The notes under the pieces were generated by a model, which made no database searches, was not told where the DNA came from, and saw nothing but the letters and a program-made list of their open reading frames with translations. Below are positions 35,285 to 42,751 of a DNA stretch of 46,754 bases, piece by piece. The stretch covers positions 119,105 through 165,858 of the forward strand of contig CAIYLG010000018.1 in the NCBI GenBank assembly GCA_903927025.1, read 5' to 3'. The translations under genes and the position numbers were made by a program. The DNA is from an uncultured Armatimonadota bacterium. GTDB taxonomy: Bacteria; Armatimonadota; Fimbriimonadia; Fimbriimonadales; Fimbriimonadaceae. Each line of letters starts with the position of its first letter. Position 1 is the first letter of the stretch.

Positions 35285-35308
35285 CCAATGTTTCACGTGA
35301 AACATTGG
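35285..35308. promoter_or_regulatory. Perfect parS centromere site
   Basis: A 24-bp perfect palindrome CCAATGTTTCACGTGAAACATTGG. Its central 16 bases, 35289-35304, are TGTTTCACGTGAAACA, identical to the bacterial parS consensus bound by ParB/Spo0J. A further half-site (GTTTCAC) is at 35314-35320. It sits in the intergenic DNA between the ABC ATPase and valS, as is usual for chromosomal parS near the origin. Confidence 0.93.
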
Positions 35309-37990: not shown

Positions 37991-38018
37991 TAGGGGGGGG
38001 GATATATCACCCCCCCTA
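37991..38018. terminator. G9/C7 hairpin between convergent genes
   Basis: TAGGGGGGG (37991-37999) pairs with CCCCCCCTA (38010-38018). The stop codon of the minus-strand MBL gene (38016-38018) forms the foot of the hairpin. The G run is nine long (37993-38001), which would make it prone to slippage. No T run follows on either strand; it could act as a bidirectional terminator of the G-rich type. Confidence 0.6.
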
Positions 38019-38855
38019 GGGTTTAACCCTCTCAAATCGCCTTCCAGCGATTTCGAAGCGGATATCCCCCTCCAAATCGGTCCTACAGATCTTGACGCCA
38101 TCCGATTTCAATCGATTGACCACGGTTGGATGAGGATGGTGATACTCATTGTTCAGGCCACAGCTCAACACCGCATATTCTGGGTGGACGGCTTGAATCC
38201 AATCTTCGCTCGTGGCGGACCTGCTGCCATGGTGGCCAGCCTTCATGATTTCCGCGTGCCAGTCCTCCGCACCGCCAAACGCCTCTTCTACCTTTGAAGG
38301 CGCATCACCCGAGAAGACGGCAGAGGCGGCACCATCGTCGATTCGGACAAGCATGGAGCCATCATTCGTCTCCTCATCAGGGTCCGTTTGTGGGCAGTCA
38401 ATCCTCAAATTGAAGGTTCCAACCGTTCCCTTCAACTCTGGACCCAGCCATTTGATGTCAGATGGACGCCTTCCCCACTTTGTTAGTTGTTTAAGCAACT
38501 GTTTATTGTCTCGAAAGCACGCTGAGGCTGCAATAATGGCATTTGGATAAGCTTTTAAGACAGATCCAGTGCCGCCGATATGATCCATGTCCGGGTGGGA
38601 CAACAAAATGAGGTCAATTCCCGAAACGCCCATTTGCCGAAGCTTAGGCACAATCACGCGTTCACCAGCGTCTGACTTGGGATTCCACGGTCCGCTGTCA
38701 ATGAGAATCGTAGTGCCATCATGCTGGAAAACGGCACAGTCCCCTTGGCCCACGTAAAGAAACGTCAGACGAGTCGGCTGGGGCCAAACCCATCCAGCGA
38801 CGAACCCGATCGCTACCGTTGCTAACCCAAGTCCAATATTCTTAGGGGTGAACAA
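38016..38855 (-). CDS. ComEC C-terminal metallo-beta-lactamase domain, separate reading frame
   Basis: From TTG 38855 (GGAGG at 38864-38860, four bases before) the product is 279 residues: a membrane helix (NIGLGLATVAIGFVAGWVW) and an MBL-fold domain with FLYVGQGDCAVFQHDGTTILIDSG, HPDMDHIGG (HxHxDH-like) and KAGHHGSRSATS, the exact pattern of the ComEC C-terminal domain that sits in the cell membrane beside the DNA channel. The frame is open back to 38939, and ATG 38888 is a possible start. The TTG start overlaps the stop of the ComEC channel gene (38842). It is in the +1 frame relative to it (see findings), so it may also be reached by frameshift. Confidence 0.8.
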   Translation of the reverse strand: MFTPKNIGLGLATVAIGFVAGWVWPQPTRLTFLYVGQGDCAVFQHDGTTILIDSGPWNPKSDAGERVIVPKLRQMGVSGIDLILLSHPDMDHIGGTGSVLKAYPNAIIAASACFRDNKQLLKQLTKWGRRPSDIKWLGPELKGTVGTFNLRIDCPQTDPDEETNDGSMLVRIDDGAASAVFSGDAPSKVEEAFGGAEDWHAEIMKAGHHGSRSATSEDWIQAVHPEYAVLSCGLNNEYHHPHPTVVNRLKSDGVKICRTDLEGDIRFEIAGRRFERVKP

Positions 38856-40206
38856 TTCGCCTCCGATAGACGAGGGCCCACCCGCCATAGTAAATAGCCA
38901 GCCAGTAGCCGCTAAACCCAGGGACCGCAACGGAGGCAAATGGAAGCGAGGCGAGGTGAGAGATATTCAGGACCCAATCACAAAGCGGAGACAGAATCAC
39001 GGTGGCGGCGCCTTCTCCCAGGATAGGAGACAGCACTGAAAGGCCATGAGAGACAAATGAGGCCCCGACAATCATCGGTACTGTCCAAAACACCAGCAGG
39101 TTTGCGACGAGTCCGCCAGGTGAGATCACCCCTATAGCGTATGCCACGAGAGGATAGGCGGCAAACACCACCACTAAGGATGCAGAAGTAAATTCAGCTA
39201 ACCTCCTCCGAATCAGGGTCTTCCAATCCGTTTTTAACGCTGGATGGCTATGGAAGTAGAAGGCAAACCCAAGCGCTACCAAAAATGAAAGTTGAAACCC
39301 TAACCCAAAGACGGTTTCTGGACGCCACAAAAGCACACCCGTGCCCGAAAGGCACAGCGCCGAAACCGGGTCAGGGTCTCGACTGAAGATATACGACGAA
39401 TACCCCAGCAAAACCATCGCCGTCGCTCTAACGATCTGAGGCTGCATGCCCGCCGCAATCCCGTAAAGCGTCAACACAATACAGAGGACCAGCAACTGAG
39501 AAGCCCGAGAAATGGGCAACAGGCGAAGCCCTAAGAACACTAGTGCTGCCAACGCAAACACCTGCACTCCCGAGACAGACACAAGGTGAATCAGTCCACT
39601 CGATGCTAGGTCGCCTCGAGTCTTCAGATCGAGCATTGACCTCCCGCTAAAGCAGATCGCATCTGCCAAGGCAGCTTCCTCCACTGGGAGAGACCGAGAG
39701 AGAAAGTCAAAAAAGGATCTTCGCCACCCATCGGCAACCTGAACGATCCACGGCCCCTTTCGAACCTCTCCTAAGCTCTGAACACGAATGGATCCGATCA
39801 CAGGGTCAAAAGTCGGTCGCTGGGATCCAATCGGCTTTGCATTCCCTGAAAGTCGGAACTGGTCCCAGATCATCACCGGTGGAGAAGCGGGAAGGGTAGC
39901 CAGCAAGACGGTGTCCTTCACCTGTACTTCGCAAGTTTGCCGATCCTCAAATACAGCAGGGACAGACGTGACGGTTGCAGTGCCTTCAATAAATTTCGGC
40001 TCGACGAGCCTCTCGGGAACATGAGGACTCAAAACAATTCCGATCAGAAATCCGAGGGCCACGACCCACTTTCTCGGGAGGCCACGCACCATAATCGCCA
40101 GCCCAAGGGCAGCGAGGCAAGCGATCAGTGCCGTCGAGCAAACGAGACCAAGCACGAGCGCGACAAAGAATATGGCAGACGGACGAGCTTCAAGTTCTTC
40201 CCTCAT
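38842..40206 (-). CDS. comEC: ComEC/Rec2 competence channel, N-terminal membrane part
   Basis: Forms the inner-membrane channel for single-stranded DNA during transformation. The 454 residues from ATG 40206 have the ComEC_N architecture: an N-terminal OB-like loop (GTATVTSVPAVFEDRQTCEV), then 'SSGLIHLVSVSGVQVFALAA' (family LHLLAVSGLHV), SFLVALGFAFYFHSH, and about eight membrane segments. It ends at TAA 38842-38844 after 'YYGGWALVYRRRIVHP', just where a full ComEC would continue into another helix and the MBL domain. The next frame supplies precisely these. A GTG-type start up to 40236 is possible; this ATG overlaps the end of the DciA-like gene by 17 bases. Confidence 0.88.
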   Translation of the reverse strand: MREELEARPSAIFFVALVLGLVCSTALIACLAALGLAIMVRGLPRKWVVALGFLIGIVLSPHVPERLVEPKFIEGTATVTSVPAVFEDRQTCEVQVKDTVLLATLPASPPVMIWDQFRLSGNAKPIGSQRPTFDPVIGSIRVQSLGEVRKGPWIVQVADGWRRSFFDFLSRSLPVEEAALADAICFSGRSMLDLKTRGDLASSGLIHLVSVSGVQVFALAALVFLGLRLLPISRASQLLVLCIVLTLYGIAAGMQPQIVRATAMVLLGYSSYIFSRDPDPVSALCLSGTGVLLWRPETVFGLGFQLSFLVALGFAFYFHSHPALKTDWKTLIRRRLAEFTSASLVVVFAAYPLVAYAIGVISPGGLVANLLVFWTVPMIVGASFVSHGLSVLSPILGEGAATVILSPLCDWVLNISHLASLPFASVAVPGFSGYWLAIYYGGWALVYRRRIVHP

Positions 40207-40603
40207 TCTTCCAGTTCGCCAACCGCCTCTCCGCAATTTCGCGGATGCTCAACTCCTTCGTATCTGGTTTCTCTTCAACTACCTGAGTCTCCTGCTGAGG
40301 AACGGGCGGTTTGGGCAAGGATCGCACGCCAAATCGCACATCTATGAAAAGGGATCGTTCTCCAGCCACTTCGTTGAGCCGGAAAAGGATCTTGTCCTTC
40401 ATCAGCCGAAGCTCCTGTGCCCAAGCCGATCCTTCCACCGCGACCCATACCGTCCCTCTACCAAACCGATCAGGGCAAGACTTTGCAGCCAGCATCGGAC
40501 CCACAACTTCCGGCCAACGCCGCATCGCAGCCTGAGCTCGTGCCGCCTTGAGAATCTCCGTGTTCTCAATCGCTCCAGGCAGAACCTGACGAATCTTTCT
40601 CAT
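40190..40603 (-). CDS. DUF721/DciA-family protein, probable replicative helicase loader
   Basis: A 137-residue protein with the DciA/DUF721 core: 'RRWPEVVGPMLAAKSCPDRF' followed by GRGTVWVAVEGSAWAQELRLMK and DKILFRLNEVAG. DciA proteins load the replicative helicase DnaB in bacteria that lack DnaC/DnaI loaders. The C-terminal 50 residues are Pro- and charge-rich (SLPKPPVPQQETQVVEEKPD). Its ATG overlaps the stop of recF by 4 bases, so it is translationally coupled to recF, a common context for the family next to the origin. The 3' end overlaps the comEC start by 17 bases. Confidence 0.85.
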   Translation of the reverse strand: MRKIRQVLPGAIENTEILKAARAQAAMRRWPEVVGPMLAAKSCPDRFGRGTVWVAVEGSAWAQELRLMKDKILFRLNEVAGERSLFIDVRFGVRSLPKPPVPQQETQVVEEKPDTKELSIREIAERRLANWKNEGRT

Positions 40604-41676
40604 CCGGGTGTCACCCTACCAGCCTCCACGTGAAACACCTTTGCCACGTCGAGAATCTTCGCCCCAGCGGCGCCCGCTTCTGTACAGGTTAATACCGCCT
40701 GACCTGCCCTTTCCAGCACAACGTCCACCAACAGTCGCCGGCGAGATTCGTCCAGGTCAGAAAGAATATCGTCTAACAACAAAAGTGGCGGCGTGCGGAA
40801 CTCTTCCTGAGAAATCGCCAGCGTCGCCAGCTTCATTGCAATCACCGCAGTGCGCTGCTGCCCCTGCGATCCGTATAGCCTTGCTTCCTTTTGGCCTATA
40901 TCGATCTGCAGATCATCACGATGAGGTCCAACCCCAGTCCCGCCTCGCTGAACATCATGGTTTCTACCCAACGCGAGTGCCTTCAGCAGAGACTCGCTGT
41001 CCACCGAGGGATCCTTGACTTCGATTCCAAGCGAAATCTGCTCCCCTCCCCCCATTTGGGCATGAATCTCCGCTGCTGGGAATGCCAGGCGTTCTATGAA
41101 CTCAAATCGCATCCTGCGGATCTGAGAACCATGGACAGCAAGCTGCTCCTCCCAAGGCTCAAACACTTCTGAGGGCTGCATCCACTCTCGAGAATCCCTC
41201 AGCAGGGCGTTCCTTTGCTCCAGAGCACGCTTGTAGAGGGTCAAGTGGCGCAGATATGCAGGAAAGAGTCCAGAAAGCTCCAGATCGAGAAAAAGTCGAC
41301 GATCAGCTGGCTCACCCCTGACGAGTTCCATGTCCTGGGCACTGATGCAGACGCAGGGCAATCGCCCAATCAGGTCAGAAGCTCGGGGAAGGGAAAGGCC
41401 GTTGAGGCTGGCGCGCTTACGAACTCCCGCTTCCAACAGCATCGACAGCTTGGTCTCGCTACCCTCAAGCTCAGCCGTCACCATCGCCCTTGAATGGCCG
41501 GCAAGGATCGCTTCAGAGTCGCGCTGACCTCGAAGGAGCCGAGTGGTGGCTAAGAGGTACAGCGCCTCAAGGAAATTCGTCTTCCCCTGAGCGTTGCGGC
41601 CAGCAAGAACGTTGAACCCAGGACACAGTTCGACAGCTTCATGGACGTAGTTGCGAAACGCCTCCAAAGCAACCAT
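40600..41676 (-). CDS. recF: DNA replication/repair protein RecF
   Basis: An SMC-like ATPase that helps load RecA at gaps. Walker A is GRNAQGKTNFLEA, followed by the family 'LYLLATTRLLRGQRDSEAI', the ABC signature stretch YGSQGQQRTAVIAMKLA, and Walker B PLLLLDDILSDLDESRR. The start at ATG 41676 makes the protein begin MVALEAFRNYVHEAVEL like other RecF proteins (358 residues). The frame is open up to 41775, with GTG 41682 and ATG 41745 as alternatives, but that extension is not conserved and would run into the DnaA-box region. It is coupled to the DciA-type gene. Confidence 0.93.
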   Translation of the reverse strand: MVALEAFRNYVHEAVELCPGFNVLAGRNAQGKTNFLEALYLLATTRLLRGQRDSEAILAGHSRAMVTAELEGSETKLSMLLEAGVRKRASLNGLSLPRASDLIGRLPCVCISAQDMELVRGEPADRRLFLDLELSGLFPAYLRHLTLYKRALEQRNALLRDSREWMQPSEVFEPWEEQLAVHGSQIRRMRFEFIERLAFPAAEIHAQMGGGEQISLGIEVKDPSVDSESLLKALALGRNHDVQRGGTGVGPHRDDLQIDIGQKEARLYGSQGQQRTAVIAMKLATLAISQEEFRTPPLLLLDDILSDLDESRRRLLVDVVLERAGQAVLTCTEAGAAGAKILDVAKVFHVEAGRVTPG

Positions 41677-42004
41677 TCTCACTGACAGCGGGCGTATTCC
41701 CACGGGAGTTTCCCCATCTGTCTTTAAGAATTCTATGTCTATCATTTGAATGTTTATAGTTACTCTTATAGACAACCTTTCGGTGGAAAACTTTGAATCG
41801 GGTGCTTCCTTTACCGGGCTTTTAGGCTAATTTGAGTTCAAAACTCTCCAAACCCTATACATACCGAATGTTGAAAACCCAGTGGATAAGTCGAGCTCTG
41901 TATAAGTTTGGATTAGGTGTTGTTAACACTTCCCTAACTGTTCGCATCTGTCCACAGGCATTCCCCACAAACTTTTGCCAAAACCTGGATAACTTTCGGA
42001 AAAC
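41677..42004. other. Candidate chromosomal replication origin (oriC)
   Basis: A 328-base stretch without a supported gene, AT-rich in blocks. It contains sites resembling the DnaA box TTATNCACA: TTATAGACA at 41766-41774 (8 of 9), AGTGGATAA at 41881-41889 (reverse, 8 of 9), TCTGTATAA at 41897-41905 (reverse, 8 of 9), and three 7-of-9 sites at 41948-41956, 41961-41969 and 41984-41992. The five at 41881-41992 lie within 112 bases. The neighbours, recF and a DciA-type gene on one side, are typical origin neighbours; dnaA and dnaN are not in the window. parS lies 6.4 kb away. Confidence 0.6.
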
Positions 42005-42751
42005 TCAAAGGAGCCCCTTGTCCCTTCCATATTTCATCACCGTGGCTTCAGCCAGATAGATTGGGTGGACATTGGGAAGTGCAGGTACCTTGCGCCTTTC
42101 GGCAATAGGCTGCCAGAGATCTCGAATAAACCGGTTTTGGGTTTCCGCCGAGAGTTCTGGGAATCTATCACAGAAGCGCCGCAGAGCATAGTATTCCTCA
42201 CGCGTCATGCCCCGCAGGTCCCCAACCTGAGATTCTAACGGATGGATTCCCACGCCATGTGGAGCGGCCATATAGATGGCGTCTGCTCTCTTTTCGTAGC
42301 ACACCACCGTCGAGGCAATCAGATCTCCCAATCTTTGGGAGCGTGGGTTGGTAAAGATGGCGAGGAGGCCCACAAAGTAAGGTCCCGGCAACATGTCGGC
42401 CGGGCGCATGAGGTTTCTCCCGAGCGCGGAGACAAAAGTGATCGGGGTACCGTCCGCCATCCGAACACGGATGCGAAGGACGCGCTTTCCAAGCGTTTGA
42501 CCGTTCCACAGTCCTTCAAACAGGATGAAGTAGCCAAAAGGAAGCGCGAAGGCGAGGAACAGGCTGAGTCCTGTAGAAACAAATGCATCCGTGACCAGGC
42601 CCACCAGAAGCGCAAGGAGCGAAAGCCCATAAAACATCACGATCACGATGAGGAGATCAAGAATGTGCGCGGTGACGCGACTTCCCAGGCCCGCGAGCCG
42701 GTAAGTTAGAATCGTTTTCTCCGGGCTTAGGATCGTGAGGTCCTGATCCAC
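42005..42751 (-). CDS. RDD-family membrane protein
   Basis: A 248-residue protein whose N-terminal half has the RDD signature: LAGLGSRVTAHILDLLIVIV (R-x-x-A-x-x-x-D), then two more membrane segments (LSLLALLVGLVTDAFV, 'LSLFLAFALPFGYFILFEGL') and NGQTLGKRVLRIRVRMADG. RDD proteins are small membrane proteins of uncertain transport or sensing role. The C-terminal 90 residues are soluble (MTREEYYALRRFCDRFPELSAETQ). The start is GTG 42751, divergent from the DUF58 gene with 29 bases between starts. This RDD plus DUF58 pairing occurs in many bacteria. Confidence 0.85.
   Translation of the reverse strand: MDQDLTILSPEKTILTYRLAGLGSRVTAHILDLLIVIVMFYGLSLLALLVGLVTDAFVSTGLSLFLAFALPFGYFILFEGLWNGQTLGKRVLRIRVRMADGTPITFVSALGRNLMRPADMLPGPYFVGLLAIFTNPRSQRLGDLIASTVVCYEKRADAIYMAAPHGVGIHPLESQVGDLRGMTREEYYALRRFCDRFPELSAETQNRFIRDLWQPIAERRKVPALPNVHPIYLAEATVMKYGRDKGLL

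Follow-up and report, generated by a model that had tools for sequence, protein, structure and literature searches.

A candidate chromosomal replication origin beside recF and far from dnaA in a bacterium of the genus Fimbriimonas

The intergenic stretch just upstream of recF is very probably the chromosomal replication origin (oriC) of the Fimbriimonas-genus bacterium examined here, as judged from its sequence and from that of its relatives. The window, which is the whole 46,754-bp stretch of DNA analysed, corresponds to G000:C18:119105-165858 in a genome (G000) of 5.25 Mb and 66 contigs; both this bacterium and Fimbriimonas ginsengisoli (G007) belong to the genus Fimbriimonas by the definition of the genome collection. 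The original prediction had proposed a candidate oriC apart from dnaA, beside recF and a DciA-type gene. This reading is supported because five lines of evidence agree: the density of DnaA boxes, the conservation of the stretch together with its DnaA-trios, a single strong genome-wide profile site, the position of parS and the strand skew of a complete relative. Replication in Fimbriimonas and its relatives almost certainly starts, on these comparisons, just upstream of recF and far from dnaA.

The bounds of the candidate depend on the start of recF, which is most likely the ATG ending at 41745 because the N-terminus that it gives aligns in close relatives. The gene-free stretch is therefore 41746-42004, so that the larger gap first proposed (41677-42004) stands for this part, whereas 41677-41745 is recF coding sequence. 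GC content falls to 40.5% in the stretch as compared with about 55% in the surrounding DNA, and an A+T-rich segment of the kind expected for unwinding at a bacterial oriC lies beside the boxes (Table 1). The comEC-like gene, dciA and recF are transcribed leftward, as is the RDD gene, which reads toward the gap, and the DUF58 gene is transcribed rightward; gene and domain calls thus agree with the directions given originally. The absence of dnaA and dnaN from the window was likewise confirmed, as these genes lie on contigs C62 and C14, respectively, and the candidate origin of the focal genome is beside neither. At 38016-40236 in the window, the ComEC-type competence membrane domain and the metallo-beta-lactamase domain, rather than sharing one protein, are encoded by two overlapping ORFs.

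Table 1. Features of the candidate origin and its surroundings, in window coordinates
Feature	Position	Strand	Remarks
parS, perfect TGTTTCACGTGAAACA	35289..35304	.	only site in the focal genome within one mismatch; 6.4 kb from the stretch
dciA (replicative helicase operator)	40190..40603	-	PF05258, E 3e-17; downstream of recF
recF	40600..41745	-	TIGR00611, E 7e-92; start codon by alignment; transcribed away from the stretch
Likely unwinding region, the 30 bp richest in A+T (80% AT)	41740..41769	.	overlaps recF start codon
Candidate oriC, entire recF-RDD intergenic stretch	41746..42004	.	259 bp, 40.5% GC; only strong R1/R2 match in G000
DnaA-trio array TAA-GAG-TAA-CTA-TAA (recF strand)	41754..41768	-	13 nt after box TTTTCCACC
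Trio-proximal DnaA box TTTTCCACC	41782..41790	-	13-nt spacer to trios
DnaA box TTTTCAACA	41869..41877	-	strongly conserved; TTTTCCAC in most close relatives
Best DnaA box TTATCCACT (8 of 9)	41881..41889	-	12 bp from the 41869..41877 box
DnaA-box-like TTATACAGA	41897..41905	-	poorly conserved
DnaA-box-like TAATCCAAA	41907..41915	-	poorly conserved
TTAACAACA inside TTNTTAACAC block	41918..41926	-	block common to closest relatives
DnaA box CTGTCCACA	41948..41956	+	strongly conserved in form TNTCCACA
DnaA box TTCCCCACA	41961..41969	+	
DnaA-box-like TTATCCAGG	41984..41992	-	
RDD-family membrane protein gene	42005..42751	-	PF06271; neighbour kept in 26 loci (synteny)

Clusters of DnaA boxes in non-coding DNA are typical of bacterial oriC, and the 259-bp stretch contains ten sites that match TTATCCACA at 7 of 9 positions or better (one at 8 of 9 and nine at 7 of 9, all within 41766-41992). 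Among 2000 dinucleotide shuffles of the stretch the mean was 0.93 sites and the maximum six, and every remaining 259-bp window of the 166-kb contig held at most five box-like sites at the same threshold. The boxes had originally been tallied as three 8-of-9 and three 7-of-9 sites. The cluster is confirmed, including the two named sites CAGTGGATAAGTC and CTGTATAAG, and the exact counts vary with the consensus, three sites reaching 8 of 9 when TTATNCACA is used in place of TTATCCACA. Most of the boxes in the focal genome are weak (7 of 9), which is a point against an origin.

Conservation of the stretch points to the same function. Across 26 loci, drawn from the genus, the family and two genomes at order level, the gap between recF and the RDD gene follows a similar plan. 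A TTA-rich block adjoins recF, a GTGGAAAAC box comes next, paired boxes occupy the centre (spaced by about 12 bp in the closest relatives) and TCCACA boxes lie on the RDD side. In a 19-locus alignment, box columns were better conserved than the remainder of the stretch (P = 1e-4), and only five columns were invariant, four of them within the TTA-rich block (41761, 41764, 41766 and 41768) and the fifth in a box (41876). The DnaA-trio rule calls for a box, a spacer of no more than 16 nt (10-13 nt as a rule), and then at least three NAN triplets (PMC8287927); the focal genome has TTTTCCACC, 13 nt and TAA-GAG-TAA. Across the same 19 loci the middle adenines of the trios (41767, 41764, 41761 and 41755) are near-invariant, and the fourth focal trio, CTA, has no middle adenine, which also counts against an origin. 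Most relatives carry DnaA-trios beside a box on the recF strand (TAA-TAA-GAG-TAA-TAA or similar), and several have the fuller five-trio form, such as TAATCCACAAATCCACACTGC-TAA-TAA-GAG-TAA-TAA in locus L033. The best box-trio score averaged 9.5, as compared with 1.5 in shuffled copies that preserve base composition only. By its sequence pattern, the most conserved part of the stretch, namely the DnaA boxes and the trio array, is the putative basal unwinding system (BUS) known from bacterial origins.

An origin is expected once per chromosome, and profile searches found one strong site in each of the two Fimbriimonas genomes. A profile built from nine recF-RDD gaps (R1) matched the focal genome at E 2e-51 and again, marginally, at one other site; F. 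ginsengisoli had a single match. A second profile (R2) was searched against nine family genomes excluded from the model; in eight of them (G007, G009, G020, G063, G089, G096, G107 and G112) the best match genome-wide lay immediately upstream of recF, and the ninth (G022) gave no match. A RecF query against named genome contigs found no relatives.

Chromosomal parS sites are commonly located near the origin (PMC4409726), a frequent but not obligatory property of bacterial oriC. The predicted parS at 6.4 kb from the stretch is indeed present as a perfect site. With one mismatch allowed, nine genomes have one parS site each and four further genomes have no match. In all seven genomes that have parS and recF on the same contig, the two are separated by 5-20 kb (6.1 kb in F. 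ginsengisoli and 6.4 kb in the focal genome); of the others, G012 has them on separate contigs and G030 has only a weak recF-like match. The parB gene is far from parS, on a different contig in the focal genome (G000:C17:57753-58280) and about 2.25 Mb distant around the circular chromosome in F. ginsengisoli.

The focal genome is in 66 contigs, one of which ends about 4.8 kb from the candidate origin, and the skew evidence is therefore that of a relative. The skew over the full genome, proposed originally as a check, was accordingly assessed from samples of F. ginsengisoli; the minimum of the focal genome is out of view. The F. ginsengisoli record is one contig of 5,231,762 bases, which opens with dnaA; recF lies at 1.9285 Mb and dnaN at 5.018 Mb. 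Raw GC skew was too jagged by eye in this genome, G018 and G029, so we used fourfold-degenerate sites corrected for coding strand, sampled in F. ginsengisoli from 80 stretches of 20 kb. The best two-arm fit to combined GC and AT skew placed the origin at 2.015 Mb and the terminus at 4.42 Mb (t = 4.33, permutation P = 0.005), and an origin at recF with a terminus at 4.389 Mb fitted nearly as well (t = 4.31). Raw GC, raw AT, corrected GC and corrected AT skew each put the origin at 1.69-2.02 Mb and the terminus at 4.36-4.42 Mb. Support for a minimum at 1.9-2.0 Mb, next to recF (1.929 Mb), is moderate, as the skew is jagged and bootstrap origins spread over 0.91-3.12 Mb (5-95% range), 61% of them falling within 200 kb of recF. 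A competing cluster of six weak sites near 342 kb in this genome looks like coding DNA and was taken as chance, and no dif site turned up in a search with a pattern like that of E. coli/B. subtilis.

These data bear on the one published proposal. The 2014 genome paper on F. ginsengisoli Gsoil 348, the only literature that we found on the origin in Fimbriimonas or Armatimonadetes (the DoriC database, outside our search, may hold a prediction), reported dnaA, dnaN, recF and gyrB to be scattered, found no box cluster and suggested an origin at 5.13 Mb by GC skew, with one box at 5.20 Mb (PMC4072686). An origin near dnaA and dnaN draws on a strong local shift in raw GC skew between 4.39 and 5.13 Mb (t = 3.8), but that arc implies replichores of about 0.74 and 4.5 Mb. 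The turning point of that paper at 4.389 Mb is nearly opposite recF, and is therefore a sensible terminus for an origin at recF and not for one at 5.13 Mb. Origins centred on dnaA or dnaN with an opposite terminus did not fit the corrected skew (t = -1.2 and -1.0), and only 0.3% of bootstrap origins fell within 300 kb of dnaA. Regions upstream of dnaA held zero to three weak boxes in 16 genomes (F. ginsengisoli was unscored, since its record begins at dnaA), and the densest 300 bp in the 100 kb around dnaA had four sites, with no box cluster at dnaA. A stronger cluster with a skew minimum by dnaA, named originally as the observation that would speak against the recF site, was thus looked for and not found. 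We consider an origin near dnaA and dnaN extremely improbable; a location at about 1.9297 Mb is a well-supported prediction for F. ginsengisoli and corrects the published position.

Two other explanations accept the boxes at recF and place the origin elsewhere. DnaA regulates genes that have boxes in their promoters. The position directly upstream of recF could thus reflect a DnaA-regulated promoter, with the boxes timing transcription of recF and dciA. Such a promoter would need neither trios with invariant middle adenines, nor parS alongside in every testable genome, nor a skew switch at the same place; moreover, R1 finds dense box clusters unlinked to recF in another family (f2), and no better cluster was found elsewhere. 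This explanation is therefore unlikely, although it retains more plausibility than a DnaA-titration or reactivation site, like datA or DARS, that adjusts initiation at an origin elsewhere. Densely clustered boxes, most of them weak, would suit a site of this type, but the trio, parS and skew evidence would not, and neither the focal genome nor F. ginsengisoli has a second profile match of comparable strength, so that we give it hardly any credence.

If the recF-upstream stretch is the origin, initiation could proceed as follows. DnaA, encoded far off on another contig, would bind the central and right-hand boxes of the stretch, and a filament extending from the trio-proximal box (41782-41790) would cross the 13-nt spacer onto the trios, from 41768 to 41754 on the recF strand. 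By analogy with the known unwinding system (PMC8287927), the filament on the trios would melt the A+T-rich DNA at the recF start (41740-41769). DnaB helicase would be loaded next, probably aided by DciA from the adjoining gene; DciA is described as a helicase operator (PMC5109545), and would presumably act as such at this origin. New origin DNA would then be segregated via ParB on the parS 6.4 kb away. Activity of this origin in the focal strain is predicted from its sequence.

An oriC apart from dnaA is an arrangement already known, and the recF-side origin of Fimbriimonas is a new, well-supported case. The E. coli oriC, between mnmG and mioC, is similarly apart from dnaA but has other neighbour genes, and its BUS score is reported to be weak (PMC8287927), whereas the BUS is the best conserved part of the stretch described here. 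The BUS of B. subtilis oriC (boxes 6/7 and trios; PMC8287927) has the same succession of a box, a spacer of about 13 nt and NAN trios, and several Fimbriimonas relatives also have tandem boxes directly before TAA-TAA-GAG-TAA-TAA; the focal stretch differs in being upstream of recF and not beside dnaA, in its weaker boxes and in its degenerate fourth trio. The mycobacterial dnaA-oriC-dnaN-recF-dciA-gyrB cluster (PMC5720831) shares adjoining recF and dciA next to the origin, but dnaA and dnaN are gone from this group here (as is gyrB in F. ginsengisoli, PMC4072686) and recF-dciA remains with the origin. Within the genus itself, the published F. ginsengisoli origin (PMC4072686) is at 5.13 Mb as compared with about 1.9297 Mb here.

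The first complete genome of this lineage left the origin open, and our analysis now proposes a specific one that can be tested. If such chromosomes are numbered from dnaA, base 1 and the likely origin are about 1.9 Mb apart. DnaA-trios, parS and recF-dciA can, on this reading, remain at an origin from which dnaA and dnaN have departed. What is new beyond the known arrangement is the correction of the published guess and a lead on repeated origin relocation, which this group of related genomes offers a way to follow. On balance we favour, with some reserve, the view that the gene neighbourhood of the origin has changed repeatedly within the order, with the box cluster staying recognisable and parS staying along in the Fimbriimonas family; the settings on which this view is based are recF (Fimbriimonas family), dnaA/dnaN (G039), 11 kb from parB (G029) and other places (G035 and G037).

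The settings outside the Fimbriimonas family come from f2, of the same order, in which the R1 search found dense clusters of perfect or near-perfect boxes. As R1 may recognise any DnaA-box cluster, these may or may not share common descent with the Fimbriimonas site. The cluster is upstream of recF in G033. In the complete genome G029 a cluster of ten or more near-perfect boxes at 2.1388 Mb (L184, G029:C1:2138780) is likely to be the origin. It is far from recF and dnaA, between glycosyltransferase-like and carB-like genes (named from translations). Skew in 20 samples of G029 gave P = 0.02 for this site as compared with 0.20 for recF and 0.30 for dnaA, and the unconstrained optimum under this sparse sampling was 2.6-2.75 Mb. 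In a hand count over the phylum sample, dnaA and recF were within 10 kb of each other in 23 of 71 genomes outside the Fimbriimonas family and in none of the 10 that belong to it, which suggests an old neighbourhood that the family has lost. The f2 cluster of G039 (L183, G039:C34:35126), next to dnaA and dnaN, may be the older arrangement retained. At this locus, dense boxes with TAA-TAA-TAA-TAA trios follow immediately downstream of dnaA, and dnaN is close.
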